From positions 1 through 45,502 of the forward strand of contig JAQUQE010000013.1 of the NCBI GenBank assembly GCA_028716225.1: a stretch of DNA of 45,502 nucleotides, in the 5' to 3' direction. This DNA is from Dehalococcoidales bacterium. Its GTDB lineage: Bacteria > Chloroflexota > Dehalococcoidia > Dehalococcoidales > UBA5760. The notes below the pieces were generated by a model. That model made no database searches. It saw only the letters and a program-made list of their open reading frames with translations, and was not told the DNA's origin. Below are positions 6,158 to 45,433 of this stretch, in pieces; positions within the stretch are counted from its first letter, which is position 1; every line of letters begins with the position of its first letter. Position numbers and translations under genes: made by a program.

Positions 6158-6166
6158 GAGACGATT

Positions 6167-6622: not shown

Positions 6623-6638
6623 ATTAAAAGGGGTTAAG

Positions 6639-7294: not shown

Positions 7295-7319
7295 TAGAAA
7301 CTTCACTAGAAGGGAGAGT

Positions 7320-19720: not shown

Positions 19721-19753
19721 AGCTAATCGTTTAACTCTCTCAAAATGTGACAG
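19721..19753 (-). promoter_or_regulatory. Family-B promoter element B1
   Basis: Minus strand: CTGTCACA, 16 bases, CGATTAGCT, then TATATAGGAGGG and the ATG of the gene at 19704. It is identical in both boxes and spacing to B2 and shares the 16-base spacing with B3-B5. Confidence 0.7.
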
Positions 19754-21874: not shown

Positions 21875-21907
21875 AGCTAATCGTTTGAGAGGCAAAAAGT
21901 GTGACAG
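21875..21907 (-). promoter_or_regulatory. Family-B promoter element B2
   Basis: Minus strand: CTGTCACA, 16 bases, CGATTAGCT, then TATATAGGGGGTG and the ATG of the gene at 21858. Same boxes and spacing as B1, and also the next seven bases (TATATAG). Confidence 0.7.
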
Positions 21908-25276: not shown

Positions 25277-25474
25277 TTAGCCTGCTATCTCGACAGCGCC
25301 GACTATCTGGTACTTTTTGCCAGTGGCGGGATTGATAGCCTTGCCGAAGAAGCCACCCTTCCCTGAAGAGAATGTTTTGGCGTAAGCAGCGGTAATAACG
25401 AGCTGGGTAACATCATACTTCGCCGCTTTGGGCTTATCGCCCTTGACCTCAGTTACCTTTGACTTTGTGACCAT
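25277..25474 (-). CDS. Hypothetical phage protein
   Basis: 65 aa. Lys-rich N-terminus, then VTQLVITAAYAKTFSSGKGGFFGKAINPATGKKYQIVGAVEI, which reads like a small beta barrel with a conserved GGFFGK turn. SD AAAGGGGGAAA. Possibly nucleic-acid-binding; unproven. Confidence 0.5.
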   Translation of the reverse strand: MVTKSKVTEVKGDKPKAAKYDVTQLVITAAYAKTFSSGKGGFFGKAINPATGKKYQIVGAVEIAG

Positions 25475-25862
25475 TAGACTTTCCCCCTTTATCGTTTTTT
25501 ACTATCTTGACTGGCTCTTTAACCAGTAGATGCCCACCGAGATGGAGACATATACCCTTGAAGCGCTTGACTTGCTCCCTCGTATAGCCGTCGAGCCACG
25601 TATTGAGGTCGAGTGTCCTGCCTTTAGGGAGCTTCTCCGCTGACTTTTGGGAGAGCTTAGTTGTGAATGTGTCCCCACGATTGTAACAGGCGACAACTAT
25701 TCCCCTGTACGTGAAGAACTTCTCAGGCTGTGGCTCTCGATGAGAGCCTTCACGCCTGATAGCGTCAATTTTGCCAGTGCAATTATGGCAGTAACCAGTC
25801 TCAGGTATAGCTGGCCGCTTGTCGCAGATAATACAATGATATGTTCTTGTTTTCGTTACCAC
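25449..25862 (-). CDS. Zinc finger protein with C-terminal basic domain
   Basis: 137 aa, GTG start 3 bases after AAGGGGGTGA. The N-terminus YHCIICDKRPAIPETGYCHNCTGKID is a zinc ribbon. The rest (FFTYRGIVVACYNRGDTFTTKLSQKSAEKLPKGRTLDLNTWLDGYTREQVKRFKGICLHLGG) recurs in phage early genes as far as I recall. The tail is highly basic. Confidence 0.6.
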   Translation of the reverse strand: MVTKTRTYHCIICDKRPAIPETGYCHNCTGKIDAIRREGSHREPQPEKFFTYRGIVVACYNRGDTFTTKLSQKSAEKLPKGRTLDLNTWLDGYTREQVKRFKGICLHLGGHLLVKEPVKIVKNDKGGKSNGHKVKGN

Positions 25863-25913: not shown

Positions 25914-26252
25914 ATGACACATTGGTCAAAGTCTGATAAAAGAACAACGGTAATACAGCAAAGATTACAGACGTGTCGCCAGCGTGGAGTGTTCGATAAG
26001 TTCAGTCAGGAGCGTGTTGGTGAAGCTAACCCTAACTGGAAAGGCGACCATATTAAGCATGACTCTGGACGTGCAAGGGCAAGGCGACAATTTATCGAAT
26101 TACAGCCTTGTAGATATTGTGGTAGTCTAAAAACAGAGCACCACCATAAAGATAGTGACGAATTTAACAATGTGGCTGATAACCTCGAATGGGTATGCCG
26201 CCGATGCCACATGAGGCTTGATGGTCGAATTCATAACTTACGCCATCAATGA
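25914..26252 (+). CDS. Free-standing HNH homing endonuclease
   Basis: 112 aa. GEANPNWKGDHIKHDSGRARARRQF (DNA-contacting NUMOD-like start) is followed by the HNH core: CRYCGSLKTEHHHKDSDEFNNVADNLEWVCRRCHMRLDG, with zinc CxxC pairs and the His-Asn-His residues. It is the only rightward gene in the leftward block, with its own extended -10 and GAGG site. Its 3' end runs antisense to the end of 26164-26385. Likely a selfish insertion. Confidence 0.8.
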   Translation: MTHWSKSDKRTTVIQQRLQTCRQRGVFDKFSQERVGEANPNWKGDHIKHDSGRARARRQFIELQPCRYCGSLKTEHHHKDSDEFNNVADNLEWVCRRCHMRLDGRIHNLRHQ

Positions 26253-26385
26253 CACCCCCCTTAATTTTATTCAGGCAGTCACTACACACTAAGAGCTTGA
26301 CACGCCTATTTTGGAGGCGCTCATAGTCCTTAGTTTCCGCCCGCTTAGTACCGCAGGCTTGACACAGTTTTTGCCCATAGTACAT
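26164..26385 (-). CDS. Small zinc ribbon protein, 3' end possibly altered by HNH insertion
   Basis: 73 aa. LCQACGTKRAETKDYERLQNRRVKLLVCSDCLNKI is a zinc ribbon. After about residue 47 the frame runs antisense to the HNH gene and ends GGIPIRGYQPHC, which looks unlike a natural domain. The original 3' end may have been displaced. SD GGAAGGGGGTG. Confidence 0.55.
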   Translation of the reverse strand: MYYGQKLCQACGTKRAETKDYERLQNRRVKLLVCSDCLNKIKGGVIDGVSYEFDHQASCGIGGIPIRGYQPHC

Positions 26386-26400
26386 AGCGCACCCCCTTCC

Positions 26401-27130
26401 ACTTATAGACTCATTACTGAGGCCAAGCCGAAACTCAGCCTCAGTCTATCAGGCTAGAAGTTAAGAAAAACCTAATACTCCCTTCAGTCAAGAGGGAGTC
26501 TGTCTTGAAAGTTAGATGATATACATGATGTCACAGGAAAGTGAAATTGTCGGAAGCTCTTTCCGTGACTTTTGCGGAAAGACCCCTGAGCCGGTTAGAG
26601 CCGTGGTGACTTGCTACCTGTCACTGTCTACCTGCCATTAGTCATACTCCGATATTTCCCATAGAGCCTCTTACAAAGGATATGAGCAGAGCATGGCTTG
26701 ACCTGATAGACCGCGCTCTCAACCTCTTGATGATGGGAGATGCCATCACAGCCGTACTCAGGCTTGAGCCTCGTAGGCGGATTACCGCCATCTTTGCCTT
26801 ATTTAACGCCGCAGGCGTAGGCGTCCCTTCAAAGCTGTGGATAGCTTGCCAAGATTTAGGACTCAGCACTTCCCCGTATGGTTTTAGGTGGTTACGGCCA
26901 TCCTTGCAACATGGAGCTAGTCTCCCCGCCACAGTTCCCACGTAGGAGGACGAAGTGCAAGATGTCCCCTGTGACCAGGGCGCTGTGCCAGACTCCGAGC
27001 GTTGAGTTAGCATGAGTGCTTACGACTCCCACGTTTAGTCAGCCCCAAGAGCTAACAGGCATGGGCATAAGCTCGTTTTCCTCTATTCCCGTTATCGAGC
27101 CTATTGCTAAGAGTGATTTTTGTCACTCTA
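26401..27130 (-). ncRNA. Candidate large structured non-coding RNA
   Basis: About 730 bases without a credible gene, downstream of three tandem family-B promoters. At least ten local perfect stems follow one another: 27110-27129 (7 bp), 26967-26980 (5 bp, 4-base loop), 26806-26818, 26776-26789, 26760-26771, 26731-26748, 26606-26624, 26559-26582 (8 bp), 26477-26499 (7 bp) and 26406-26448 (5+6 bp). The only open frames (87 aa plus, 123 aa minus) lack SD and protein-like composition. Length and setting recall large phage RNAs such as GOLLD or ROOL, but I cannot match either. Ends are approximate. Confidence 0.55.
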
Positions 27131-27133
27131 TCA

Positions 27134-27166
27134 AGCTAATCGAACGAGCCTTCAAAAATGTGACAA
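27134..27166 (-). promoter_or_regulatory. Family-B promoter element B3
   Basis: Minus strand: TTGTCACA, 16 bases, CGATTAGCT. It points into the gene-free hairpin-rich region; the first stem (27110-27129) begins about 5 bases later. Confidence 0.65.
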
Positions 27167-27219
27167 GCTCAATTCGCTTGATAGAATGACAAGCCGCTAT
27201 TCAAATTCGCTGTATACTA

Positions 27220-27252
27220 AGCTAATCGTATGAGCGTTAAACTTTGTGACAA
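27220..27252 (-). promoter_or_regulatory. Family-B promoter element B4
   Basis: Minus strand: TTGTCACA, 16 bases, CGATTAGCT, then TAGTATAC. Second of three tandem copies 86 bases apart from B3. Confidence 0.65.
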
Positions 27253-27301
27253 GCTCAATAACAGGCATAAAAAAGCTGGTTAGTAAATTGCCCTACTAAC
27301 C

Positions 27302-27334
27302 AGCTAATCGAGTGACAGCGTGATAATGTGACTA
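27302..27334 (-). promoter_or_regulatory. Family-B promoter element B5
   Basis: Minus strand: TAGTCACA, 16 bases, CGATTAGCT. It begins at the base after the stop codon of the sigma-like gene (27335). Upstream box slightly diverged. Confidence 0.6.
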
Positions 27335-27949
27335 TTATGCCTGCATTGACTCTAGCACCATAGGATTATTTTTAATCCAGCGACATAATACTTGCCTGTC
27401 ATTAGCGTTTAGAGCTTGGCCTAACATACGCTTGACGCCTATTGATTTAATGTTTTTGGGTATTATGTCGAGTATGCGTTGTGCGTCAAGTTTAGCGCAA
27501 ATTTTAGACTCGAATTCCATCTCTCCGACTAGCAATTCTGATAATTCAGCGCTGGCTGATTCAGGCTCATTATCAGCCTGCTTTACTGGTGCATCAAGCC
27601 TTGCCATGTGAGAGCGTGTTGTATATTTTCTCCACCAGTCTACCCAATCGCATTTTGCCATCGCATAACTTAGTCTTTCGTCGGGTGTCGTTTTTGTTAG
27701 CAGTGTTGAGACTAACTCTTGGAATAAGTCTTGACGTTCTTCTGATGGAGCTTTACTAGCAAAAATATATGCGCTCCGAATTGCTATACGCTGATTAGCT
27801 GACAGGTATTTAATTTGGTGTAAGTATGATTCCGTTGTTTCCGCCATATCAACCTTGCATGATTCTGGTATATGTCTGGCAAACATTAAAGCTATGTCCC
27901 GTAAACTGACCTTGATTTTTCCATTGGCTTGAATCTGTTCCGTTTTCAT
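27335..27949 (-). CDS. Sigma-70-like (region 2) transcription factor candidate
   Basis: 204 aa. Residues ~70-125 read like sigma region 2: SEERQDLFQELVSTLLTKTT, then CDWVDWWRKYTTRSHMARLDAP, in the order DLFQE...W.RKY.R..LD. The last ~45 residues (LDAQRILDIIPKNIKS...LGQALNANDRQVLCRWIKNN) could be a region-4-like HTH. It has its own TTGACA-17-TATTGT promoter with a palindrome in the leader. It ends directly at promoter B5. It may direct RNA polymerase to family-B promoters (inference). Confidence 0.5.
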   Translation of the reverse strand: MKTEQIQANGKIKVSLRDIALMFARHIPESCKVDMAETTESYLHQIKYLSANQRIAIRSAYIFASKAPSEERQDLFQELVSTLLTKTTPDERLSYAMAKCDWVDWWRKYTTRSHMARLDAPVKQADNEPESASAELSELLVGEMEFESKICAKLDAQRILDIIPKNIKSIGVKRMLGQALNANDRQVLCRWIKNNPMVLESMQA

Positions 27950-34015: not shown

Positions 34016-34124
34016 GGGGCTGCTCCTTACTCTTCACAGTCTCCCAGTATTTTAACAAAGTACATTTCTCACAGACTCCCATATCTTTTCCCGGACAAGT
34101 TTTGCACTTATCCGGTCTGTCCAC
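34008..34124 (-). CDS. Tiny zinc-binding protein
   Basis: 38 aa from GTG 34124. KCKTCPGKDMGVCEKCTLL has two CxxC pairs. It overlaps the end of the intein-bearing gene and the start of the ferritin-like gene. The AAGGAG upstream is rather far, so the start is tentative. Confidence 0.5.
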   Translation of the reverse strand: MDRPDKCKTCPGKDMGVCEKCTLLKYWETVKSKEQPHG

Positions 34125-35775
34125 TTAGTTTACCGGCTCCTTGTAACTGTTTCTGTTGCTCCAGGGTAAGAAGTGATGTCACCTTTTCGGTACCCATAAC
34201 ATCCTTCCTGTAAGCTCTTACCTGGGGGATAAGACCCCGGTAATACTCAGGGTCGTGTTTCATAATCTCTGTGGGCTGAAAATCAGGTACATGGGATTTA
34301 TACCAGCCGATAATCTGGCCATAGACCGGCTTGTGCTCATAGGACATGATTTCCTCAGCCGTAGCCTCAACGCCGAAGTGGTGTTTATCAGCAAGACAGT
34401 TATGGGCAATACCGTGTGGAGTTAGATAACTTTCATCCTCGGCTACGCAGACGTTATAAACTGGTCCATTGTACTCTTCATCTTTTACGCAGCGTACCGG
34501 CAGGAACATATAACCTTCACCAGCCCACCCTTTGTTACGGAGTGTCCGTGATTGAACCACTCGCCAGCCAAAATCGCAAATAGCATTTAAACGGGACATC
34601 GCATCACCCGCAATAGAAATGGTATATGTATTACTTTCCGTCTTTATTAATCTACCCTCAATTATGCCATCTGGAGTCTTACTACATCTGAAACCATGCA
34701 GAATACCCAAGCGAAAAAGCATCATATGAATTTGATAAGCAAGGTCCTTTGAAACGGTAGCGTAATGCATTTCATTACTCGTAATGCATCCATCTCCCGA
34801 GAAGAGACCTTTTAGCAGCCTTCCTTGTTTTTCTGAGGGAAGATACATAAACCATGGGGGCAAGTGCTTTTCTAGGGCATTGCTGCCGAAGGCTTCAAAA
34901 AATAAGCAGAATTCTTTGTGGGTATAAGCGAGATGTAAGCATGTTCTTCTATGATATGTTTTCGGCTCGACTCCAAAGGTTTTGACAAATAATTGAATCA
35001 CTCTGTCTATGTGGTTAAGCTCATGATATCCTAAGCTGATAGTAATACGATTTTCAACCTTACAACCTTCTGCGAGATACCACCCAAGTATCTCCGCGAG
35101 GTCAGGTGTAATGATATCCATATCGCGGGTTTCTAATATTCTAGGAAAAACCATGAAGTCCCCATCGGTTATGTCTCTAGCATGTACCCAAGCTAGTTGG
35201 GATTCATTTAATCCTCCATGAGTGCGCCAATTCCAGCGCCATCCATCTTTTGCTACCAATACTGGATGTTCTGGTGTAGCCCGGAACGGGGAGCCAAAAT
35301 ATACTAGGTCGATATTTCGCATTATGCCAGTATGGTTTCGCACCATATGGTCGGTAATGCGTTGCACCTGTCCTCTATGGCTGAAGATTCTCCTGGCTCG
35401 ATTTTTGTAAACTTCAGCTAGTGTAATAACAGGGTGCATATCTCCATTTACGTAAACTAAAGAGTCACCAGGTTGACAGTCACAGGGTTTGCCGGCGATC
35501 CGCCCGCCCCCGGCAAGGTCCAGCTCCATCTTGTAGAGCTCTTTGCCCAGCCGGCGCCGGAGCTCTTCGATTGTTTCCTGGGTATTGGCCAGTTTAGGCT
35601 TGGTCACTATGGCTGGAGTAGTGCCGGATATGACTTGAGTAGATGAGGGTTGGATATGAAATACTTCTTCGCCCGGGTATGGTGGAAATTTCACTTCTGG
35701 CGGCGTATTTAACCCTTTAACGATGACGCTCACCAGCAGTTTAAGACCGACAATGGGTAAATTACCAAGGTCCAT
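34108..35775 (-). CDS. CDC...KHH-motif protein interrupted by an intein
   Basis: 555 aa precursor, 195 aa after splicing. The start is set at ATG 35775 with SD GGGAGGTGG; the upstream ATG at 35802 lies in the -10 box. Host parts: a hydrophobic N-terminus (LPIVGLKLLVSVIVKGL), a Pro/Thr linker, then KPCD joined to CLADKHHFGVEATAEEIMSYE and a helical C-terminus. Splicing restores CDCLADKHH, a probable metal site. First gene behind the leftward divergent promoter. Family not recognised. Confidence 0.75.
   Translation of the reverse strand: MDLGNLPIVGLKLLVSVIVKGLNTPPEVKFPPYPGEEVFHIQPSSTQVISGTTPAIVTKPKLANTQETIEELRRRLGKELYKMELDLAGGGRIAGKPCDCQPGDSLVYVNGDMHPVITLAEVYKNRARRIFSHRGQVQRITDHMVRNHTGIMRNIDLVYFGSPFRATPEHPVLVAKDGWRWNWRTHGGLNESQLAWVHARDITDGDFMVFPRILETRDMDIITPDLAEILGWYLAEGCKVENRITISLGYHELNHIDRVIQLFVKTFGVEPKTYHRRTCLHLAYTHKEFCLFFEAFGSNALEKHLPPWFMYLPSEKQGRLLKGLFSGDGCITSNEMHYATVSKDLAYQIHMMLFRLGILHGFRCSKTPDGIIEGRLIKTESNTYTISIAGDAMSRLNAICDFGWRVVQSRTLRNKGWAGEGYMFLPVRCVKDEEYNGPVYNVCVAEDESYLTPHGIAHNCLADKHHFGVEATAEEIMSYEHKPVYGQIIGWYKSHVPDFQPTEIMKHDPEYYRGLIPQVRAYRKDVMGTEKVTSLLTLEQQKQLQGAGKLSGQTG
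34399..35478 (-). mobile_element. Intein with LAGLIDADG homing endonuclease
   Basis: 360 aa inside the protein above. Starts at Cys (CQPGDSLVYVNGD, block A). Block B is ATPEHPVLV. LAEILGWYLAEG and LLKGLFSGDGC are the two LAGLIDADG helices. It ends DESYLTPHGIAHN (blocks F/G), followed by Cys+1. All splicing residues are present, so it should be active. It sits exactly between the two Cys of a CDC motif. Confidence 0.92.
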
Positions 35776-35797
35776 AGCTACCACCTCCCGTTTCGCT

Positions 35798-35827
35798 ATC
35801 ATATAACCACTTTACCATGGTAGTCAA
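35798..35827 (-). promoter_or_regulatory. Family-A promoter P4 (leftward)
   Basis: Minus strand: TTGACTACCATGGTAA with -35 at 35827-35822, 18-base spacer, -10 TATGAT (35803-35798). Drives the intein-bearing gene. Back-to-back with P5; only 7 bases lie between the two -35 boxes. Confidence 0.7.
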
Positions 35828-35872: not shown

Positions 35873-36595
35873 ATGACTGACAAAAAGCCACAGACGACAA
35901 CGGAAAATGAACCTGTTAGTAAATGCCCTTTTTGCGACAAAGCCATATTACTTGGTGAGTATAAAAACGTAGGAGCTGCCCTGACAGCGCACAAGTGGGC
36001 TGCCCATGCCAGGGAAATGAATACGCAACTTGACGCTGCCCGACAGAAATCAGCAGAAACACGAAAGATTAAAAGTATGGCCAAAAAGGAAAAGAAAAAC
36101 AAACCCTTACAGACCACTATCGAAAAAGCCATAGAGCCAGAGTCCAATACAGAGCCTCCTGTCACCTCCATAGAAGAAGAGCCAGTTACTCAAAAGGACA
36201 CTGAAGCAGTGGCTCCTCCACCAAGAAAGACCGAGGAAGAAAAGGCAGAGGTGGAGAGACTAAAGAGACTAAAAGTAGAAACCGAGCGGAAATTAAGAGC
36301 AGGTCCGGGGATTATCGCTACTGCTACCGCTCCCAAGCCCGGTGCCATTCAATTCCAGCTTGGTGCTCTTTTGATAGAGGTCGATCCATTAAGCCTGGTA
36401 GAGTGCTACCAACTCTACAAAGACATGGTTACCCGCTGTGGACTGACCAGTACGTTCTCGGAGGCCATGGTTGATTCATTTGGCATGGCATGGCGGATGC
36501 TGGCAGCCGAGCTACCAGCAATGGAGCCGCGGCATAACGGTAATGGACACCATGAAGTTTCCCAGGAACAAATAACCAGAGTAAGAATTGCTTGA
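35873..36595 (+). CDS. C2H2 zinc finger and coiled-coil protein
   Basis: 240 aa. CPFCDKAILLGEYKNVGAALTAHKWAAHA (residues ~18-46) is a C2H2 finger. Then comes a long Glu/Lys/Pro linker, a helical EEEKAEVERLKRLKVETERKLR and a globular C-terminal part (GAIQFQLGALLIEVDPLSLVECYQLYKDM). First gene of the rightward block. Possibly a regulator or scaffold protein. Confidence 0.6.
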   Translation: MTDKKPQTTTENEPVSKCPFCDKAILLGEYKNVGAALTAHKWAAHAREMNTQLDAARQKSAETRKIKSMAKKEKKNKPLQTTIEKAIEPESNTEPPVTSIEEEPVTQKDTEAVAPPPRKTEEEKAEVERLKRLKVETERKLRAGPGIIATATAPKPGAIQFQLGALLIEVDPLSLVECYQLYKDMVTRCGLTSTFSEAMVDSFGMAWRMLAAELPAMEPRHNGNGHHEVSQEQITRVRIA

Positions 36596-36608
36596 ACAAG
36601 GAGGAATC

Positions 36609-37469
36609 ATGTCTAGTATAGGTGAATTGCTTGGCAAGAAGTACGGTGATACCAAAACTCAAAGTGGGGAAGGTAAGACTGACAAGGACAAATTCCAGGA
36701 AACATTAGACTTGGCGAATGATGCCGCCAAACTACGCATTGTTGAGGGAATTGGCGGCACTAAAGGCGTTGTAGAGAAACAAGCTGATAAAACTACCCTC
36801 GATATCTCCGGTGTCATTAAGGCCCAGTCTGAACAGATTAACAGCCTTATGACTAACCTGGTGACCCTTATCACTGCAAAGAAAGATAACGTTGACCCGT
36901 TCTTTGAGTACATGAAGGGTGAACTCAGGGACATGAAAGAACAACTGAGTGGCAACGACCCACTGGCGGCTATAGCTAATAACATGGCGGTAATGAAAAG
37001 CCTTACTGACCAGATGAAACAGCATCTTGGTATCGGTGCTCCAGTGGCCGGTACCGGCGACAACATAAATCTTATGCTGGAGATTGAGAAACTAAAGGGT
37101 GACAGAGAGGAATCAGCTCGACGCTGGCAGGCAGAGAGAGACGATATCCACCATCGCTGGGAGATAGAGGACAAGAAATGGACTGCCGATTATAACATGG
37201 CAGTAAACAAACTCTCCAGCGATAGCAAAGGGAGAGAAGGCGCTGCTACCATGGCTCAAGACTTGATTGGTTCAGCAATTGAGGCTTTCGATGCCGGGCG
37301 TCGAGGAGTAGCGGCAGGGGCGCAGGCTACACCACCGGTACAATACAAGCTCCCCAAGAGTATTATCTGCGAAGAATGCAAGAAAGAGATAGTTGTTCCC
37401 GAAGACCATAATCCTAGTCAGCCTGTAGTATGTGCCTGTGGCGAAAAATACAACTTTGGACCAAAATAA
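36609..37469 (+). CDS. Coiled-coil protein with C-terminal zinc ribbon
   Basis: 286 aa from ATG 36609 (SD AAGGAGG). Helical throughout: IKAQSEQINSLMTNLVTLITAKK, FFEYMKGELRDMKEQL, and a charged stretch LEIEKLKGDREESARRWQAERDD. It ends with a zinc ribbon (IICEECKKEIVVPEDHNPSQPVVCACGEKYNF). Composition suits a scaffold or DNA-associated particle protein. No family named. Confidence 0.55.
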   Translation: MSSIGELLGKKYGDTKTQSGEGKTDKDKFQETLDLANDAAKLRIVEGIGGTKGVVEKQADKTTLDISGVIKAQSEQINSLMTNLVTLITAKKDNVDPFFEYMKGELRDMKEQLSGNDPLAAIANNMAVMKSLTDQMKQHLGIGAPVAGTGDNINLMLEIEKLKGDREESARRWQAERDDIHHRWEIEDKKWTADYNMAVNKLSSDSKGREGAATMAQDLIGSAIEAFDAGRRGVAAGAQATPPVQYKLPKSIICEECKKEIVVPEDHNPSQPVVCACGEKYNFGPK

Positions 37470-37516
37470 TGGGAAAACATCCGGCAGAATCTTTAACCCC
37501 CCACACCCCCCATAAG

Positions 37517-37699
37517 ATTAAAGATATATATATAGAGTTAGAGTTAGATAAAGATTATGTAACGGCGTTACATCCACGCCTGAGTTTGAGGCTGTAACGG
37601 AAAAGGTCGTTACAAGGTCGTGCCTAGAAAAAGTGTCATGTAACGGGGCCAAGTCGTTACATTCCGTTACATTTCCGTTACATTTGGAGGTCATAAAGT
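37517..37699 (+). repeat. Inverted repeat copy 2 in an intergenic region
   Basis: Near-identical to the minus strand of 12181-12347. Differences: an extra GAGTTA at ~37537, an extra 11-bp unit (ATTTCCGTTAC) at ~37671 and a few substitutions. The initiator frame is broken here. It ends 2 bases before the GTG at 37701 and supplies that gene's SD (GGAGG). Confidence 0.92.
37559..37681. other. Candidate replication origin 2 (GTAACG iterons)
   Basis: Eight hexamers: GTAACG at 37559, 37594 and 37640, and CGTTAC at 37566, 37608, 37655, 37665 and 37676. The last three are spaced 10-11 bp, one helical turn. An AT-rich tract (ATATATATATAG) lies 30 bases upstream. This is the only gene-free DNA of the two arrays (37470-37700). 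Confidence 0.7.
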
Positions 37700-37700
37700 A

Positions 37701-38057
37701 GTGGGTAAACTACAAGATATTTTAGACAAATTCGATGGAGTGACTTTTGCCAAGTCTCTTATACTTAAACAGATAAAACGCAAGATCGACCCCTTCCTGG
37801 AAAAGTGGGGACCTGAACGATGCGATGCTATGATATTAGCTAACAAGGACTTCGGTGATGTTATACCTCCGGAGCTGGTAGCCAAATATGCCCCTGAAGG
37901 GAAGAAGTGGTCGTTCTTACTGGAGAAATTAACCGACGATGACTTTATTTCGATACTGCCGCCCTGGTTTATTCAAACTGTTGACAACCGTGGTAATCAG
38001 GGTACAGAATGGGCGGGTAGGCAAATAAAATGGCTGAAGGGATTTCTTGGCGAATAG
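37701..38057 (+). CDS. Hypothetical protein downstream of the iteron array
   Basis: 118 aa, GTG start with SD inside the repeat. Helical (LQDILDKFDGVTFAKSLILKQIKRKIDPFLEKWG), then PPELVAKYAPEGKKWSFLLEKLTDDDFISILPPW. No family recognised. Its last codons contain the TTGACAACCG promoter for the next gene. Confidence 0.55.
   Translation: MGKLQDILDKFDGVTFAKSLILKQIKRKIDPFLEKWGPERCDAMILANKDFGDVIPPELVAKYAPEGKKWSFLLEKLTDDDFISILPPWFIQTVDNRGNQGTEWAGRQIKWLKGFLGE
37981..38010 (+). promoter_or_regulatory. Family-A promoter P6 inside a coding region
   Basis: Plus strand: TTGACAACCGTGGTAAT with -35 37981-37986, 18 bases, -10 CAGAAT. Nearly identical over 30 bases to P3 (33110-33139). It lies in the last ~75 bases of 37701-38057 and would feed 38030 onwards. 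Confidence 0.55.
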
Positions 38058-38701
38058 ACCCCAAAACAGGTAAAAAACTGCTTATCACCGCAGCTGTAGC
38101 AGTTGGGGTTGGCATATTCCTGAGTCAGATTTCTTCAAAACCATCAGGCGCTTCAGTTAAATACCCCACTAATTATCTGGTAGACCCGGACTCCGTATCT
38201 GAAATAGCGACACAGCTGCCCAATGATGAGGATGACTTCATTCTATCGGCATGGGATTATGTCCACAATAAAGTGCGCTATTCCAGCTATAACACTGATA
38301 TTTTTCTCATCAATTCCGGCGTAGAATGTACCCGCTGCTATCATCCGATATCAGTGCTTCAAAGCGGCAGCGGTAACTGTGTAGCTTCGGCCTCATTGCT
38401 GACATCTCTTCTCAGAGCCAAATTATCCCCTGACCGGGTATATGAAGCGGTAGGGTATCTCGATACCGGCAAAGGTGATTTTGGTCATGCCTGGGTGGAA
38501 GCCAAAAGGAACGATGGTAACTGGTACCTATTAGAATCAACTTCGGCTCCCTGGGGATGGCAGTCGAGGAACGCTGCTAACAACTATGAAACTTTAGCCA
38601 AGTTTAACGATGCCAAGTTTGAGTGCTATAGCCATGAAATGTGCCAGGTCGCCATGGGGTGCCCCTGTGAGCAACGGAGTGAAAGATGGCGCGGCCTTTA
38701 G
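38030..38701 (+). CDS. Membrane-anchored transglutaminase-like protein
   Basis: 223 aa. Residues ~15-33 (KKLLITAAVAVGVGIFLS) form an anchor. Residues ~70-175 follow the transglutaminase-like (papain-fold) core: GSGNCVASASLLTSLLRA with Cys117, DFGHAWVEAK with His153, and WYLLESTS with Glu169 in the third position. It could cleave or cross-link protein or peptidoglycan peptides. Extra Cys near the end (CYSHEMC, GCPCEQ) may form disulfides. Shares the anchored plan of other proteins here. Confidence 0.7.
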   Translation: MAEGISWRIDPKTGKKLLITAAVAVGVGIFLSQISSKPSGASVKYPTNYLVDPDSVSEIATQLPNDEDDFILSAWDYVHNKVRYSSYNTDIFLINSGVECTRCYHPISVLQSGSGNCVASASLLTSLLRAKLSPDRVYEAVGYLDTGKGDFGHAWVEAKRNDGNWYLLESTSAPWGWQSRNAANNYETLAKFNDAKFECYSHEMCQVAMGCPCEQRSERWRGL

Positions 38702-39027
38702 TTGTAACCGGTAATACTCTTAATGAGCTGCAGCACCAGCTAGAAGCCTGGTACAAGCCCGGTGCCAAGATGCACCTTTACCTGGGCGTTCAGAGAGACA
38801 TGACTGCCGAGATACTTGCTGATATCCAGCAAAGTTTGCTAAAAGGCGGAGTGAAACTTACCTCCCCTCTTGATATAGGTAATGGCAAATGGCCCAATAC
38901 TTTACGCATACAGTTTGAGAAAGGTATAGGCCCACTGCCGCTGGATAGCCTAACCAGTAAACCTTTAGGCTGGATACTGATAAATGTAAATGCTGTTAAT
39001 GCCAGGCTGGGAGGTAATCTCCGTTAG
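38686..39027 (+). CDS. Hypothetical protein
   Basis: 113 aa, overlapping the previous gene by 16 bp. LNELQHQLEAWYKPGAKMHLYLGVQRDMTAEILADIQQSLLKGGVKLTSPLDIGNGKWPNTLRIQFEKG is alpha/beta. This order of helix-strand-helix-strand repeats in the neighbouring 39036 product (DNLRDTLTFAGVEDLQVSSSGSQVNVTWRKG). Possibly particle proteins of one type. No family recognised. Confidence 0.5.
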   Translation: MARPLVVTGNTLNELQHQLEAWYKPGAKMHLYLGVQRDMTAEILADIQQSLLKGGVKLTSPLDIGNGKWPNTLRIQFEKGIGPLPLDSLTSKPLGWILINVNAVNARLGGNLR

Positions 39028-39035
39028 GAGGAATT

Positions 39036-39449
39036 ATGGCTTGGGAACAAATAGGTGAAGGTGGCAATACTGACATAATGGATGTTGTCAGTTATGAGAA
39101 TAATCAGGTCGCTGAGGGTCAGAGGGCAATGCTTCAGTGTGAATTTGCCCTGCCGGTACCGACCTGGCAGATAGATAATTTACGTGACACTCTGACATTT
39201 GCGGGGGTGGAGGATTTACAGGTTTCGAGCAGCGGTTCTCAAGTAAATGTAACCTGGAGGAAGGGGTTTGCCTGGGCTGCGGTCATTATTGCAGCTCTAG
39301 TAGTTATAGCACTTATCATTATCTGGCGAATGTTCAAGGATGTGCCAGCGCCGGTACAATCGTTTGCACTTATTGGCATAGTAATAGCAGCTCTAGCCGT
39401 TGTCGGCGTGGTCGTATATAAAGCAGTAAAAAGTGGGAGGGCACCCTGA
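39036..39449 (+). CDS. Two-pass membrane protein
   Basis: 137 aa. N-terminal ~75 residues form a small alpha/beta domain. Two membrane helices follow (WAAVIIAALVVIALIIIW and FALIGIVIAALAVVGVVVY) with a short basic end. SD AGGAGGAA. TGATG coupled to the next gene. Candidate integral protein of a viral or host membrane. Confidence 0.6.
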   Translation: MAWEQIGEGGNTDIMDVVSYENNQVAEGQRAMLQCEFALPVPTWQIDNLRDTLTFAGVEDLQVSSSGSQVNVTWRKGFAWAAVIIAALVVIALIIIWRMFKDVPAPVQSFALIGIVIAALAVVGVVVYKAVKSGRAP

Positions 39450-39955
39450 TGAATGAAAATGCAAGAATCAGTAGACTCAATATGAGGCCGGTAGCGTTCA
39501 GGCCAATGGAGGCGAGTTATGAGGCTGGGGCTCTAATCCCAGGCCCACGTAATCATATTCTCGATGCGTGGGTGGAAGTGAACAGCGCTCGCGTAAATCA
39601 AGTAGTGGTGGGCGGTACTTTCAATATCGGGGTTCAATTTGAGGCCGAGAATATCAATGGCAATACCTGGCATCTGGCCATAACGGGAATTGACCCCACT
39701 GGCGCTGTAGCTTGTTTTTGGGATGAGAGTGTTGGTTTCCCCATACAAAAGAGCTATGTAACCGACACTCGATTGTTAAATAAGCCCAGCTCACCCATAA
39801 TGCCTGCCGGCACCGGAGCACTGGTGGTAACACTCAGGTTGTGGCTTAACGATGATTTCAACGTTAGCCCTTCAGCTCCGCCGCAAAATCTGTGGCTCAA
39901 TGGGATATCCGGTCAATCGCCTCCTCCAAACACTAATGGCCCGTTTACAGCCTAA
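39449..39955 (+). CDS. Beta-rich hypothetical protein
   Basis: 168 aa. HILDAWVEVNSARVNQVVVGGTFNIGVQFEAENINGNTWHLAITGIDPTGAVACF reads as an Ig-like or jelly-roll strand pattern. GTGALVVTLRLWLNDDF follows. Pro/Ser/Asn-rich end. Probably a structural protein by composition and setting. Confidence 0.5.
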   Translation: MNENARISRLNMRPVAFRPMEASYEAGALIPGPRNHILDAWVEVNSARVNQVVVGGTFNIGVQFEAENINGNTWHLAITGIDPTGAVACFWDESVGFPIQKSYVTDTRLLNKPSSPIMPAGTGALVVTLRLWLNDDFNVSPSAPPQNLWLNGISGQSPPPNTNGPFTA

Positions 39956-39966
39956 TAAGGAGTGTC

Positions 39967-40662
39967 ATGGCAACTTTAACGATTGCCGATAGTATTATAA
40001 ACCAAGGCGGGAACATTACCTTTAGCCTCACTGGCTTTTATGGAGGATATGCTATTTATGTTGGAGTGGTAGGCGGCGGCTATGCCACCTTCTACGCTCC
40101 GACTGGTAACTTATCTAATGCAGTTATGGGACCTATCGGAGAGGCTCCTGGAGGTCCATACACTTTAAGGGCTTGGCAAGAAGACGAATACGGCTCACTA
40201 ATAGCTCAAGCTACTGCCCCCTTTTATATAGAGGCAGTCGGCTGGTGGAATGTAGTGGTAGCCCAACTTTCTGTAGGACGCCCGGCAACTTATAGTGGCT
40301 GGTACAACTCAGCCTATGCCCAGTTTTCGATCGCTCGAATAGTCGGCGTCTTAGGTTGGTACAACTCAGCTTATGCCCAGTTATCAGTTACTCGAATGGC
40401 AGCCTCTAGCGGCTGGTATAACAGCGCTGTGGCCATCTTGAATGTGAGTCGCGGCGCAGCCTCATCTGGCTGGTACAACTCAGCCTTAGCTCAATTTTCA
40501 ATCGCTCGAAAGGGAGTAGAGCCGCCCCCTCCGGATGGTGAGGGTGGTATAAACTGGCCGGCAGTGGCCATAGCCGGCGGTGTCGTAGTTACCCTTGCGG
40601 CTGTTGCTGCCACTCACAAAGGGCAAATAAAGAGCGTAGTATCTAAAATCAAGCGCAAGTAA
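39967..40662 (+). CDS. Repeat protein with C-terminal membrane anchor
   Basis: 231 aa. Residues 1-90 form a beta-rich domain (YAIYVGVVGGGYATFYAP). Residues 92-186 are five tandem 19-aa units beginning GWYNSA-AQ-S--R. After a Pro/Gly linker, residues ~197-216 (WPAVAIAGGVVVTLAAVAA) are an anchor followed by a basic tail (SKIKRK). Likely a tethered spike: head, repeat stalk, anchor. Confidence 0.65.
   Translation: MATLTIADSIINQGGNITFSLTGFYGGYAIYVGVVGGGYATFYAPTGNLSNAVMGPIGEAPGGPYTLRAWQEDEYGSLIAQATAPFYIEAVGWWNVVVAQLSVGRPATYSGWYNSAYAQFSIARIVGVLGWYNSAYAQLSVTRMAASSGWYNSAVAILNVSRGAASSGWYNSALAQFSIARKGVEPPPPDGEGGINWPAVAIAGGVVVTLAAVAATHKGQIKSVVSKIKRK
40240..40524 (+). repeat. Five tandem 57-bp units coding 19-aa repeats
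   Basis: Units start at 40240, 40297, 40354, 40411 and 40468. The common pattern is G-W-Y-N-S-A-x-A-Q-x-S-x-x-R plus five variable residues. The first unit is the most diverged (GWWNVVVAQ). DNA between units is similar enough for copy-number change by slippage. Confidence 0.85.
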
Positions 40663-40666
40663 CCTA

Positions 40667-40696
40667 TTGACAACCATGTTATTGCTGGTAAAGAAT
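40667..40696 (+). promoter_or_regulatory. Family-A promoter P7, capsid operon
   Basis: Plus strand: TTGACAACCATG, -35 40667-40672, -10 AAGAAT after 18 bases. It precedes a ~110-base leader and the gene at 40816. The -10 is weak, so activation by a viral factor is possible. Confidence 0.55.
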
Positions 40697-40731
40697 TACT
40701 GCATGTCTTAAATAAAATAAGGTTTTCTAAA

Positions 40732-40792
40732 AGAGGGGATCAGATTTATCTGAAGATGCTTCCCCTCTGCAACCTTCAGGTCGAGAGGTTGC
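40732..40792 (+). promoter_or_regulatory. Structured mRNA leader with two hairpins
   Basis: AGAGGGGA (40732) pairs with TCCCCTCT (40761-40768), enclosing a second stem TCAGA/TCTGA. Immediately after, GCAACCT (40769) pairs with AGGTTGC (40786-40792). The stems lie between P7 and the SD of 40816. Probably stabilises or controls the structural mRNA. Confidence 0.65.
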
Positions 40793-40815
40793 CACTATCT
40801 AAAGGAGGTAGAAAA

Positions 40816-41196
40816 ATGATTGATGTAACCAAAACCATTACCTCGGTAGTAGAGGGCGCAGTCGATATCGGCATGGTCAAATGGGATGAGAAAGCCATCG
40901 CGGCTAATGCAGCCTCAACCAGAGGCGCTCCCTTCAAAGGGGCTGTTGATATCTCACGACTGGCAATCACCATCGGCGGATACGCTGCATGGGCCTTGGG
41001 CAAAGGGAAAGTGGCAGTTATTGGCGAGGCGGCAGCCCTGTCAACAACTCCTCTCTTGATTCACTCGATTTATAATGCCATGCAGAAGCCCTCGGTAGCC
41101 CCTGTAGTGCGTGAGTACGTACAGCGAAGGGTTGCCAATCCGGTACCTGCAGGACGCACCTATGAGCCGGAACTGAAAAAAGCCTACGCAATGTAA
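40816..41196 (+). CDS. Hydrophobic protein at the head of the putative capsid operon
   Basis: 126 aa from ATG 40816 (SD AAAGGAGG); the frame is open upstream to 40756 within the leader hairpins. IDVTKTITSVVEGAVDIGMVKW is amphipathic and DISRLAITIGGYAAWALGKGKVAVIGEAAALSTTPLLIHSIY has two weak membrane segments. Tail basic. Probably particle-associated. No family recognised. Confidence 0.5.
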   Translation: MIDVTKTITSVVEGAVDIGMVKWDEKAIAANAASTRGAPFKGAVDISRLAITIGGYAAWALGKGKVAVIGEAAALSTTPLLIHSIYNAMQKPSVAPVVREYVQRRVANPVPAGRTYEPELKKAYAM

Positions 41197-41239
41197 AAAG
41201 CATAAATAGTAAATTTAGCTCTGAAGGAGGAATACACGG

Positions 41240-41893
41240 ATGAGCTCTAAAGCATTTCTTATCGAAACCGATTCCATGACCTATAGCGACCAGCAACGGC
41301 TAAGAACCGCTGCACTCGCTGGCGCTGTTCAGCGAGCATATAACCAGGGTATCGCACCCTGGGACAAAGAGGACCTTCCCCTGAAAAACGATTCCAAATT
41401 TGCCGATACCCCTGACCTGAGTGAACTTATTGACTACATAGCCAGGGGTGGATGGCCCAAGAATCTGGACGCCCGCGAATTCCAGCCCACGCTTGATGCT
41501 GGTGCTGGTGCTGCTGCGGACTTCTGGAATACCCCTGTCCTGGCTGCAGTCGGCACCGAATACAGCTGTCTTGGCGCTGTTGGTGTTGCCCCCGCTGCCA
41601 GCCGTACCAATAAGATAGTTGTCTGGTACAAAATTCAGATAATCACGACCCCATTACCGGTGAACCGGCTTCTCTTCCGCCGCAATACGGCGACTGGTTT
41701 ACTCCAGGCAGAGTTTGACCTGGAGCAGGTTTCCGGTGGTGAGAGAGTCGATGGTTACTTCTCTGAGCCCCAGGTATGGGACAAGACTACCCCCTACGCC
41801 ATCAACGCTATGTGCATGCTTCTCACTAATGCAGCGTGCAAAGTCGTTCTTGGCAATTTCGTTGTTGAACCTGCCGGACAGACTAACGTCTAG
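41240..41893 (+). CDS. Putative structural (capsid-type) protein
   Basis: 217 aa, strong SD (GAAGGAGG). N-terminal ~75 residues are helical. Then Ala/Gly-rich AGAGAAADFWNTPVLAAVGTEYS and a beta-rich end (TNKIVVWYKIQIITTPLPVNRLLFRR...CKVVLGNFVVEPAGQ) suggest a jelly-roll-like subunit. It is in the best-expressed looking part of the operon. No match to HK97-type capsids seen. Confidence 0.45.
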   Translation: MSSKAFLIETDSMTYSDQQRLRTAALAGAVQRAYNQGIAPWDKEDLPLKNDSKFADTPDLSELIDYIARGGWPKNLDAREFQPTLDAGAGAAADFWNTPVLAAVGTEYSCLGAVGVAPAASRTNKIVVWYKIQIITTPLPVNRLLFRRNTATGLLQAEFDLEQVSGGERVDGYFSEPQVWDKTTPYAINAMCMLLTNAACKVVLGNFVVEPAGQTNV

Positions 41894-41907
41894 TTGAATA
41901 ACGCACC

Positions 41908-41932
41908 GGGGGGATGCGTAATTCCCCCCTTC
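41908..41932 (+). other. Hairpin between two structural genes
   Basis: GGGGGG and CCCCCC (with AT/ATT inside) pair about 15 bases after the stop at 41893. Sited between putative capsid genes, it may adjust their relative expression or protect the upstream mRNA end. Confidence 0.5.
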
Positions 41933-41997
41933 CCTACTTATGGGGCGTGCTGGAGAGGCCGTAATCCTCTTACTTTATTCAAACTGGAGGTAATCAG

Positions 41998-42456
41998 ATG
42001 GGTCAATATTCTCGTAGAGTACAACAGTTACTTTTGGGTCAGCAAGGTGCTAGTTATCAAATATGGCCAGCTCCGACCGGTGTCCCCGCGACTGGTGTTG
42101 CGGTAGTTTCCGGTGCCGGTGCCTGGGGTAACGTAGCGGATATCGTGGCTGCTGGTGCTATAGCTACTGAGTTCTGGTGTGTTGGGTTGTTCATCCAGAC
42201 ACTAGGCGGTGGTGCTATTCAGGCAATGGAATTCATTGTTGCCAGCACTGGTCCTGCCGCTGGTAACCCCGGTCCTGTAACTACCCCCTTTATCTTCCAA
42301 TTCAGGGTAGACCCCAGCCTGGTAACACTGGACTATGGCTTCTTCCCGTTGCCTTACCCGGTGTATAAGCCAGCTGGTACTCGCGTTTGCTACTGCGCCG
42401 GCGGTGCTGCCGCCAGAAGCATGGCCGTCAGTTTGGCCTACGCAATCAACTTATAG
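41998..42456 (+). CDS. Putative major structural protein, beta-sandwich
   Basis: 152 aa. Gly/Ala-rich strands (ATEFWCVGLFIQTLGGGAIQAMEFIVAS, PFIFQFRVDPSLVTLDYGFFPLPYPVYKPAGTRVCYCAGGAAARSMAVSLAYAINL). The FPLPYPVYKPAGTR then repeated Ala/Val strand is typical of phage jelly-roll proteins. Small, framed by hairpins at both ends of its mRNA: candidate major coat subunit. Confidence 0.45.
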   Translation: MGQYSRRVQQLLLGQQGASYQIWPAPTGVPATGVAVVSGAGAWGNVADIVAAGAIATEFWCVGLFIQTLGGGAIQAMEFIVASTGPAAGNPGPVTTPFIFQFRVDPSLVTLDYGFFPLPYPVYKPAGTRVCYCAGGAAARSMAVSLAYAINL

Positions 42457-42463
42457 CTCAGTC

Positions 42464-42498
42464 GTACCATGCACCCGGATAATCCGGGTGCATGGTAC
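42464..42498 (+). terminator. Perfect 15-bp hairpin after the putative coat gene
   Basis: GTACCATGCACCCGG (42464-42478) pairs without mismatch with 42484-42498 around ATAAT. It begins 8 bases after the stop. No T-run follows, so partial terminator, RNase barrier or mRNA stabiliser. The rest of the gap to 42575 is AT-rich with no gene. Confidence 0.75.
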
Positions 42499-42575
42499 CT
42501 TACTAAAGTAATTGAATATTGAATAAGGCTATCTAATCACTCTTTGAGAAAAGAGAGAAAAAAGGAGTGTGAAGT

Positions 42576-43199
42576 ATGTCACAAGATTTTATGCGCCGAG
42601 CCTACAAAGCATCGGACGCGATGGAACCCGTTGCCCTGCTCGATGATTTTGTCCGGGTCATTACCAACGGCCAGGAATATTTCGGCAAGGTAGATTTCTT
42701 TGAAGCTATCCCCCCATTTCAGTGTATCGACTTTTGCGCTGTTCCTCCATGGGGACCGCTGGCAGTAGCCACTCCCATGCCGGCAGCCACCAGCCCAGGC
42801 AAATATAATGTAACCAATCTTGACCTGGACGACGACGAGTTTGGTCAGTGGCGCTGGTTCCCGCTCGATAATATCCAGGTAGGATTATATCTGCCCTCCG
42901 GTGTTGCCAAATGGTCGCTGAAGAATATTCAAGGCGCTCTTGACAGGGCAATCGTCTATCGCGATCCGCTACTGGTATCAACAGAGTTTTACTCATGGGA
43001 AGACCAGCGGCCGGCAATGCAGCCTACCAACTTCTCTGGATATGTTCAGAATGCCGCTCGGATTGTCGCCTTTGGCTATCGATATCATATTTCACAGATC
43101 AAGGTGGGCAACCCACTGTACACAAACCTGTTGAACGGCAACACTCCATGCACACCGGTAATCTGCAAGGGCTTCATTGGGCAGCCTTCAAGAACGTAA
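42576..43199 (+). CDS. Putative structural protein
   Basis: 207 aa, SD AAAAAAGGAG. FFEAIPPFQCIDFCAVPPWGPLAVATPMP, WRWFPLDNIQVGLYLPSGVAKWSLKNIQ, then VSTEFYSWEDQRPAMQPTNFSGYVQNAARIVAFGYRYHI. Aromatic- and Pro-rich beta protein without enzyme motifs. Position suggests a minor capsid or vertex component. Family unknown. Confidence 0.45.
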   Translation: MSQDFMRRAYKASDAMEPVALLDDFVRVITNGQEYFGKVDFFEAIPPFQCIDFCAVPPWGPLAVATPMPAATSPGKYNVTNLDLDDDEFGQWRWFPLDNIQVGLYLPSGVAKWSLKNIQGALDRAIVYRDPLLVSTEFYSWEDQRPAMQPTNFSGYVQNAARIVAFGYRYHISQIKVGNPLYTNLLNGNTPCTPVICKGFIGQPSRT

Positions 43200-43231
43200 A
43201 ATCGAGGTTTATTAAATAAAGGAGGAATTCT

Positions 43232-43615
43232 ATGCCAGCTTTAACTGAGCTTGATAGAGGATATAAGGTTACTGGTCCAGTAGTAAATTTGGCGGTGGCT
43301 GGAGTTGGAACAGCAGCAGTGGTATTTATCCGCTCCAACTTTGCCGGGCAGATAGGCACAAAGAGCTTCAGAATTAAAAAGGTCATCTGCCGTAACAATG
43401 CGGCGGGCGCTACCTTCTTAAACATCGGCACCGGTGTTGGGGGCCTTTTTGTCGCTGCTATCCCCGCTCTAATGACCTTAAACAACATGGATCAAGAGTT
43501 TGGTCCGGAAGAGCTGGGAAATGCGGAATTTTTCGCTAGTGCGACGGCTTGGCCTACTGCCCTGGCCGCTGGTGGTACACTCGATGTGCAAATAGAAGTT
43601 GAAGAAATAGGCTAA
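43232..43615 (+). CDS. Putative structural protein, single beta domain
   Basis: 127 aa. GYKVTGPVVNLAVAGVGTAAVVFIRSNF, SFRIKKVICRNNAAGATFLNIGTGVGGLFVAAIPALMTLNN, then GGTLDVQIEVEEIG. Regular strand pattern of a jelly-roll-like domain. SD AAAGGAGGAA. Probably a particle protein. Confidence 0.45.
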   Translation: MPALTELDRGYKVTGPVVNLAVAGVGTAAVVFIRSNFAGQIGTKSFRIKKVICRNNAAGATFLNIGTGVGGLFVAAIPALMTLNNMDQEFGPEELGNAEFFASATAWPTALAAGGTLDVQIEVEEIG

Positions 43616-43628
43616 AGGAGGCTCCACT

Positions 43629-44177
43629 ATGGCTGACCGCCAAGATTATACGGCTATAGCCGCAACTGGGGCCGCCGTTATGGCTGCTCTGGCCTGGTCT
43701 AAAAGTCCGGCAGCCGCCTCAAGCCAGTTTCCGCCGGAGCTTATGCAGCTTTTGACTGCAATGGCCAGTGACCTGAATGATGCTGACAGGGTTAAACTTG
43801 CCGACATTCTGGTAGCCATTCAACAATTGAATCCTGAATTGAATCCTGCAGTTGGGGGCTTAAAAGGTTACCCCGCAAATCTACCGAGACTTAGTACAAC
43901 AAGGGTGCAAATACTGGCTGTTAATACAGCGGTACAGCTTCCAGATATTGTCATACCGGATGGTTTCGCTGTTAAAATCAAGGCATATCCAACTAATGCC
44001 GGCATAGTGCGCGTCGGACCAGGCAAAACTGGAGCTATCGACCCTAACCAGGCCGAGACGCTTCTGGCTAATGAAGCCACTTTTTACAACATACAGAATA
44101 CCAATATTCTATATGTGACGAGCACAGCTCTGGCCGTTGTCGGAGAATATGTTACAGTGACAGCGGAGCAATCATAA
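43629..44177 (+). CDS. Putative structural protein with N-terminal hydrophobic segment
   Basis: 182 aa. AIAATGAAVMAALAWSKSPAAASS is a weak membrane or anchor helix. Then a helical PPELMQLLTAMASDLNDADRVKLADILVAI, and a beta domain TRVQILAVNTAVQLPDIVIPDGFAVKIKAYPTNAGIVRVG...ILYVTSTALAVVGEYVTVTAEQ. The DIVIPDGFAVKIKA pattern recurs in phage particle proteins. SD AAAGGAGG. Confidence 0.5.
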   Translation: MADRQDYTAIAATGAAVMAALAWSKSPAAASSQFPPELMQLLTAMASDLNDADRVKLADILVAIQQLNPELNPAVGGLKGYPANLPRLSTTRVQILAVNTAVQLPDIVIPDGFAVKIKAYPTNAGIVRVGPGKTGAIDPNQAETLLANEATFYNIQNTNILYVTSTALAVVGEYVTVTAEQS

Positions 44178-44189
44178 TGGAGGTGTAAT

Positions 44190-45194
44190 ATGGCAGGCGG
44201 TACTACTGTTACCCCGGTATCCCCCGGCCTTACTTTTTACGGTATTGTTTCTAATGTAATCTCTGCCACCCAGTTTACAGTACCATTGCTGGTAGGCAGA
44301 GGGGATACTTTTTTTAATAACTGGATGGTATACGTGCTGCGTAAAGGCACCGGTACCGGTGCCGCCCCCCAGGGCGAGCAGCAAATAGCCACTGCCTTTG
44401 TCAGTAACAGTGGCCTGGTTACATGCCCGGCCTTCACCGCAGTTCTCGCTCCAGGCGATGAGATACTGATGCTGCACCCGGATATCTCAACAGTATTGGC
44501 AGCCGGCATCGCCGCAGTCCTGGCAGCTATCGGAGGCGTAGCAGCCGGTGTAGGTCTTTGCTACCGTGGCATAGTTACTGGGGTTCCTGGAGCTGGCCAA
44601 TTCACCATTGCAACCCTAGCCGGTCAAGGGGGTAACTCATTTATAGACCTCAGTGGAATAAATCCCTACTACGCTTTTGTTAAAACAATCGCTGCCGGCA
44701 CTGGTGCCCCTCCGGAGGGAGAGCTCCAGCCAATCACAGGTTATGCCACCTTAACCGGAAACTTCAGCGCGGGCGCTTTTACAGTCCCAGTTGGTATTGG
44801 CGATGAGATTCTCATTATACATCCCATGCTGGCCAGAATATTTAACATGTACGGAACGCCTCCGGCCACCGGAAGCCTAGTGGCTAACTGGCAGGCTGCA
44901 GAGCAGACCTTAGTTAACATCGGCGCAGCCAATACCAGGAACAAGGTCAATACCTTAATGATTGACATGAATGCTATCGGTGGTACACTCACTATCCGTA
45001 TGTATCATGCTATAGCCGGTGTTCAAAGACAAATCTACAGCCAGGCTTTTACTGTTGCACTCGATGGACCCGGACGATGGACAATTAACGGCCCTGTTGG
45101 AATATTCGATATTCTCCGGGTAACCTGCCAAAGCAATCTTGTTGGTGACAACGGTGTAGCCATAGCCTACAGCTATATGTTGGAGCACATGTAA
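44190..45194 (+). CDS. Putative structural protein with repeated beta domains
   Basis: 334 aa. Two related N-terminal units: TFYGIVSNVISATQFTVPLLVGRGDTFFNNWMVYVLRKGTGTGAAPQGEQQIATAF and CYRGIVTGVPGAGQFTIATLAGQGGNSFIDLSGINPYYAFVKTIAAGTGAPPEGELQPITGY, both ending near GDEIL-IHP. The C-terminal ~90 residues (LMIDMNAIGGTLTIRMYHAIAGVQRQIYSQAFTVALDGP) resemble phage decoration or tail domains. TAATG coupling to the next gene. Confidence 0.55.
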   Translation: MAGGTTVTPVSPGLTFYGIVSNVISATQFTVPLLVGRGDTFFNNWMVYVLRKGTGTGAAPQGEQQIATAFVSNSGLVTCPAFTAVLAPGDEILMLHPDISTVLAAGIAAVLAAIGGVAAGVGLCYRGIVTGVPGAGQFTIATLAGQGGNSFIDLSGINPYYAFVKTIAAGTGAPPEGELQPITGYATLTGNFSAGAFTVPVGIGDEILIIHPMLARIFNMYGTPPATGSLVANWQAAEQTLVNIGAANTRNKVNTLMIDMNAIGGTLTIRMYHAIAGVQRQIYSQAFTVALDGPGRWTINGPVGIFDILRVTCQSNLVGDNGVAIAYSYMLEHM

Positions 45195-45433
45195 TGAGTC
45201 TTGAAATCAAGAGCGGCGGAGTAACCGCCATATCAGGGTTAACCATAGACGCCGATAAAGGCTGGGCGGCTAAAGGTATCTCTAATATTAAAGAGGTAGT
45301 TGCCGGCATGGCTGAAGGTGACATGATTTACCATGACGGCACAAGAATAGTCAAGATAACTCCTGGCGTTATAAACTCTGAACTTATAACGAAAGGTCCG
45401 ACCTGGCCACCCATATGGGGGTTCGTAGCATGA
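45194..45433 (+). CDS. Small paralog of the fibre protein N-terminus
   Basis: 79 aa, spanning the circular joint. SLEIKSGGVTAISGLTIDADKGWAAKGISNIKEVVAGMAEGDMIYHDG aligns along its whole length with residues 1-75 of the next gene (55-981). A tandem duplication in which only one copy gained the distal domain. It may be a connector shared by the receptor proteins. Confidence 0.65.
   Translation: MSLEIKSGGVTAISGLTIDADKGWAAKGISNIKEVVAGMAEGDMIYHDGTRIVKITPGVINSELITKGPTWPPIWGFVA

Follow-up and report, generated by a model that had tools for sequence, protein, structure and literature searches.

A large structured noncoding RNA beside a sigma-like gene in mobile elements of Dehalococcoidia

The window, by which we mean the whole stretch of DNA that was analysed (45,502 nt), is an entire circular contig (contig C13 of a 2.6 Mb bin), with a 127-bp direct repeat common to both ends. 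Its longest gene-free stretch raises the question of what about 730 bases without a gene might be doing in such an element. The original prediction placed there a large structured RNA read from the minus strand, with at least ten perfect hairpins and three tandem promoters reading into it, and likened it to the GOLLD and ROOL RNAs of phages. The coordinates given for the gene-free region proved almost exact and no credible gene was found in it.

Fold, relatives and covariation of the RNA

We counted perfect hairpins (stem of at least 5, loop of 3-9) on the minus strand of 26401-27130. Ten non-overlapping hairpins were present, as predicted, compared to a mean of 3.8 in dinucleotide shuffles, and ten or more were reached in only 1 of 200 shuffles. 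The minus strand of 26390-27330 folded at -350 kcal/mol (z=-6.2; -6.7 in a repeat run) and no shuffle equalled this fold, whereas the fold of the plus strand was weaker (z=-2.5; -3.3 in the repeat run). The RNA is about 700-730 nt long and multi-domain, with the following parts:

26400..27128, minus strand: large structured noncoding RNA (fold z about -6.5, model matches inside, G-U versus A-C exceptions); the 5' end is an estimate, just past the third promoter-like element, and the 3' end is the last conserved stem
27018..27072, minus strand: 5' domain, branched hairpin GCCCA ... UUGGGGCUGAC ... GUGGG (similar fold in relatives)
26849..26866, minus strand: hairpin with the conserved loop NCCUAAAU (sequence comparison)
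26559..26763, minus strand: conserved 3' core, 63 base pairs in 10 helices (model R1 and compensatory changes)
26400..26502, minus strand: 3' terminal domain, one hairpin and a long closing stem (model R3)

Relatives were reached through the gene adjoining the RNA (27335-27949), which was matched in genomes of the class. At four loci (L019 to L022), both flanking genes were found in the same order and orientation around a gap of about 0.9-1.2 kb of noncoding DNA, and three of these gaps gave weak collinear matches to the RNA of the window. The species genome collection yielded a fifth relative, L034, whose noncoding gap lies in the same place and within this size range. The shared arrangement is a sigma-like gene, promoter-like elements, the RNA and a zinc-ribbon gene. 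For all six sequences, the sense strand folded with z between -4.0 and -7.8, each better than its own antisense.

For the 3' core, we made a covariance model from L021, L022 and L034 only (R1; 209 positions, 63 pairs). It matched the window at full length and at the expected place, 26559-26763 (E=4e-24), as well as L019 and L020 at full length (E=1.6e-25); these E-values are rough (short calibration), and the bit scores of 94-99 are unambiguous. In the model-fitted alignment of the six sequences, three of which are close to one another, 96.8% of cells were paired and double-sided changes occurred in 38 of the 63 pairs, compared to at most 8 such pairs when the structure was slid along the alignment; none of 500 shuffles reached the observed values. 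A structure-blind MAFFT alignment gave 91.8% of paired cells and 35 of 63 double-changed pairs (slid controls, at most 11). Exceptions to pairing were G-U in 45 cells and A-C in 3, which indicates an RNA read from the minus strand, and a structured RNA rather than a structured DNA. The RNA is almost certainly real: the large minus-strand structure of the original prediction has homologs, and the base-pair covariation, whose absence from homologs had been named as a refutation, is strong.

An open reading frame of 123 aa (26642-27013) on the RNA's own strand could speak for an unrecognised protein gene among chance hairpins. This frame had no match in Pfam or PHROGs, and tblastn against the relatives gave none either. 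No open reading frame within the RNA region had a database match, and no conserved frame was common to the open reading frames listed for the relatives there. With the covariation and the R1 E-values also against it, we reject the explanation by chance or a protein gene, which is refuted by the R1 matches and the 38 of 63 compensatory pairs.

The loops and joints conserved in the 3' core are CGGCUGUG, CAAGAG, AGAGGCUC, GUAGCAA and CAAAAGUC. Model R3, made from the 3' terminal domain of three relatives, matched L019 (1e-8), L020 (5e-5) and the window (E=3.6e-5 in an unfiltered search of 1 kb). Model R2, covering the middle domain, matched L019 (1.4e-17) and L020 (4.6e-5) and gave no match to the window copy, even without filters. 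The middle domain is thus divergent among elements and unrecognisable in the window copy, while conservation of the 3' end extends to all six elements; taken together, the R1 and R3 matches and the R2 miss in the window describe a well conserved 3' half and a variable 5' half. The 5' branched hairpin and the hairpin with loop NCCUAAAU were nevertheless visible in six of the six. The stem of the latter is CUGAG/CUUGG in the window, and GGCUG/CAGCC, CGUUG/CAACG or GCAG/CUGC in relatives; in the 5' stretch, a similar long stem is formed from different pairs in each of the six.

The RNA-bearing relatives are Dehalococcoidia/Chloroflexota genomes. Over 393 genomes of the class, R1 gave strong matches only in the known loci, and 121 genomes sampled from the phylum gave no further match. 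Blastn of the RNA against phages, plasmids and 100 related genomes found no match, and no relative turned up among viral contigs in protein searches with the sigma-like gene, an AAA protein, the clamp loader and two conserved proteins of the element. Within the collections searched, the RNA appears to be rare and confined to these elements. One further genome contained weak R1 matches (G199:C138:4952-5099, E 0.04; G199:C17:1313-1419, E 0.06). Searches of viral contigs with motif patterns returned 14 matches, which we discarded as chance: the other motifs were absent and nearly all the matches lay in open reading frames.

Sigma-like gene, promoter-like elements and downstream genes

The genes and elements around the RNA are as follows:

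27335..27949, minus strand: sigma-like protein gene (synteny and predicted fold)
27303..27332, minus strand: promoter-like element copy 1, exact copy of GTCACA-N16-CGATTAGC
27274..27305, minus strand: terminator-like hairpin and T-run between copies 1 and 2 (14-pair stem)
27221..27250, minus strand: promoter-like element copy 2, exact copy
27135..27164, minus strand: promoter-like element copy 3, exact copy, directly upstream of the RNA
26164..26385, minus strand: cysteine-rich open reading frame of 73 aa (sequence)
25914-26252, plus strand: HNH endonuclease gene, between the RNA and the zinc-ribbon gene
25449..25862, minus strand: zinc-ribbon-like gene, the first longer gene past the RNA in relatives (synteny)
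21876..21905, minus strand: promoter-like element, exact copy, before the ribosome-binding site of another early gene
19722..19751, minus strand: promoter-like element, exact copy, before the ribosome-binding site of another early gene

The sigma-like gene is located directly upstream of the RNA in six of the six elements. The AlphaFold model of its protein is all-helical (mean pLDDT 70), and residues 49-120 of this moderate model resemble region 2 of ECF sigma factors with Z of 4.8-5.8. The best 13 structure matches (Z of 5.1-5.8) were nearly all sigma factors or sigma-containing complexes, mostly over these residues. A region 2-like helical domain would thereby be shared with the ECF sigma factors SigE, SigH, SigW and SigL; unlike them, the protein has no Pfam match of its own and was found here only in Dehalococcoidia mobile elements. 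We observed no match of the window protein to Pfam Sigma70_r2 or Sigma70_r4, and no significant match using Foldseek alone. The distant relative L026 matched Sigma70_r2 at 5.3e-5 (23.4 bits), just below the cut-off of 24. As Z stays below 6 and a Pfam match, itself under the cut-off, occurs only in a distant relative, we call the protein sigma-like and not a sigma factor. A shorter sigma-like subfamily was observed in other elements of the class, at L023, L025, L027, L028 and L029, including single-contig genomes of 1.5-2 Mb; we looked for the RNA beside these shorter genes and it was absent.

The pattern GTCACA-N16-CGATTAGC occurs five times exactly in the window, always on the minus strand, compared to 0.19 occurrences expected (up to two mismatches). 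Besides the three copies before the RNA, it is found only twice, both times directly upstream of genes. The exact-pattern test was significant, whereas weight-matrix scoring of the element in the window was not significant compared to shuffles. Diverged copies (TGTAACA-N15/16-TCGGATTAGC and similar) precede the RNA in every relative; in several they also precede other early genes. The original prediction of three tandem promoters held in part. Three exact copies are indeed present, but we rejected their reading as good sigma-70 promoters, since only one passes a sigma-70 scan (9/12), and only two of them read directly into the RNA because copy 1 lies upstream of the terminator-like hairpin. 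Promoters of ECF sigma factors consist of two short halves with a spacing like that of GTCACA-N16-CGATTAGC, and by their sequence the three copies look like an ECF-type promoter belonging to the element itself. We infer that the sigma-like protein is an ECF-like sigma factor reading these repeated elements.

A hairpin is found at the equivalent place in every relative, and the arrangement of copy 1 followed immediately by the terminator-like hairpin (27274-27332, minus strand) is kept. Such a unit could produce a very short RNA or serve as a read-through control. L021 and L022 lack the second promoter copy, so that a start at copy 1, passing a hairpin with a weak T-run, would be needed there.

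The RNA is the first item after the promoter-like elements, and its position between the sigma-like gene and the early operon is the same in all six elements. In each of them no more than tens of bases separate the end of the RNA from the following ribosome-binding site, with no terminator between; in the window, this site belongs to the 73-aa open reading frame and directly follows the RNA. The zinc-ribbon-like gene has 33-42% identity in L019-L022, and its Pfam matches lie only below the cut-off. No open reading frame like the HNH gene was found in the matching gap of the relatives. The extra open reading frame and the opposite-strand HNH gene between the RNA and the zinc-ribbon gene suggest that this spacing is not critical.

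Elements carrying the RNA

The RNA is carried by Dehalococcoidia mobile elements of a virus-like or plasmid-like kind, some circular and some integrated. At L020, L021, L022 and L034, the RNA is kept on contigs bearing chromosomal genes. The bin of the window contains a second circular element, contig C11 (G000:C11; loci L019, L069, L070; 49.6 kb, 127-bp overlap), which also carries the large RNA and whose structural module is related to that of the window with at most 61% amino-acid identity. In the window, the presumed structural genes (36000-45502 and 1-7700, plus strand) are almost without PHROGs or Pfam matches, except for a transglutaminase-like protein. As none of them could be recognised as the gene of a terminase, portal or major capsid protein, the element may be either an unusual virus or a plasmid. 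No tRNA or tmRNA was detected in the whole circular element.

Two further genes of these elements were observed. A 564-aa open reading frame of the window (34108-35802, minus strand) seems to be a protein of about 209 aa split by a LAGLIDADG intein-like insert, and its homolog at L019 (12635-13264) has no insert. Five elements have in common a conserved ATPase (L034, 12233-13006; L019, 4312-5043; and relatives), possibly of Zot or packaging type by sequence, of which we found no homolog in the window.

Known large RNAs and possible functions

To our knowledge, few RNAs as large and complex as this have been described from bacteria or their viruses. In the covariance-model search proposed with the original prediction, GOLLD and ROOL included, no Rfam family matched the window at gathering score. 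The window, L034 and L019 gave no match to the GOLLD and ROOL models even with the E limit raised to 10, and GOLLD and other Rfam models gave none at gathering score in L020-L022. The near-misses, SorY (E=0.04), CsrC (E=0.02) and miRNAs, were far under their gathering scores and mostly covered single hairpins, and we rejected them.

GOLLD and ROOL, found in phages and prophages, are large ornate RNAs of unknown function that often lie close to tRNA islands; the 3' region of GOLLD is universally conserved and its 5' region less so (PMC12286853). The RNA described here shares with GOLLD (RF01998) a very large size, an origin in mobile elements and a conserved 3' with a less conserved 5' region. 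Unlike GOLLD, it matches no model, has no tRNA nearby, heads an early operon behind a sigma-like gene and was found here only in Dehalococcoidia/Chloroflexota. With ROOL (RF03087) it shares the character of a large ornate RNA, and differs by the lack of a model match, by not being near tRNAs and by another genome position. The likeness to both that was originally proposed is thus one of kind (size, mobile-element origin, conserved 3' and variable 5' regions) and does not extend to membership. GOLLD forms a homo-oligomeric RNA cage and ROOL an RNA-only cage with a conserved kissing loop. OLE RNA, an ornate bacterial RNA of about 600 nt (PMC12054373), is likewise large and ornate; the Dehalococcoidia RNA does not match its model and is carried by mobile elements, whereas OLE is a host gene. 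No large structured RNA of Dehalococcoidia elements was described in the literature searched.

We consider it probable (about 0.58) that the RNA represents a new noncoding RNA family, large, ornate and free-standing, which is transcribed by the element's sigma-like factor. The ECF-like sigma factor of the element would read the promoter-like elements before the RNA and before other early genes, and the RNA would then be made early, together with the replication genes. It would form the head of the operon transcript, with no terminator after it, and the 3' stem may be the site where it is cut free. Once freed, the RNA would be a trans-acting scaffold or RNA-based particle, in the way of GOLLD and ROOL. 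We lean slightly towards such action in trans, because the RNA is large, has many stems with conserved loops and contains no conserved reading frame. Somewhat short of even odds, we propose a giant trans-acting RNA-only or RNA-protein particle of the early phase, with a dedicated sigma factor and an origin independent of GOLLD and ROOL.

The same position before the early operon could belong to a giant cis-acting 5' leader, a riboregulator or antitermination RNA controlling transcription or translation of this operon. The conserved gene order and the close, terminator-free spacing to the next ribosome-binding site in all six elements are in agreement with a leader, whereas 700 nt with many stems is far above the usual leader size, an extra open reading frame and an opposite-strand HNH gene intervene in the window, and genes further downstream own separate copies of the promoter element. 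This tolerance of inserted downstream genes also favours a free-standing RNA, and we regard the leader as rather unlikely. A role in replication, as primer, copy-control RNA or structured origin of the circular element, would fit the largest gene-free stretch of the genome, the repeats and hairpins preceding the RNA and a clamp-loader gene not far away, accompanied in relatives by a clamp gene. However, the G-U rather than A-C exceptions mark a structured RNA, the origin itself was not located in the element, and four relatives keep the RNA on contigs with chromosomal genes, which makes this role quite improbable. It would be more surprising still if the RNA were a very divergent GOLLD, ROOL or other known large RNA, invisible to present models: its size, mobile-element origin and conserved 3' and variable 5' regions fit the description of GOLLD (PMC12286853), against which stand the lack of such a match at E values as high as 10 in three elements and a window devoid of tRNA.

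As a free-standing family transcribed by the element's sigma-like factor, unrelated to GOLLD and ROOL, from another phylum, served by a dedicated promoter system and placed at the early operon, the RNA would be an independent case that also informs on timing. Mobile elements would then seem to have reached giant structured RNAs more than once. The sigma-like gene and its promoter-like element would also provide a testable, apparently self-contained expression system of an uncultured group.
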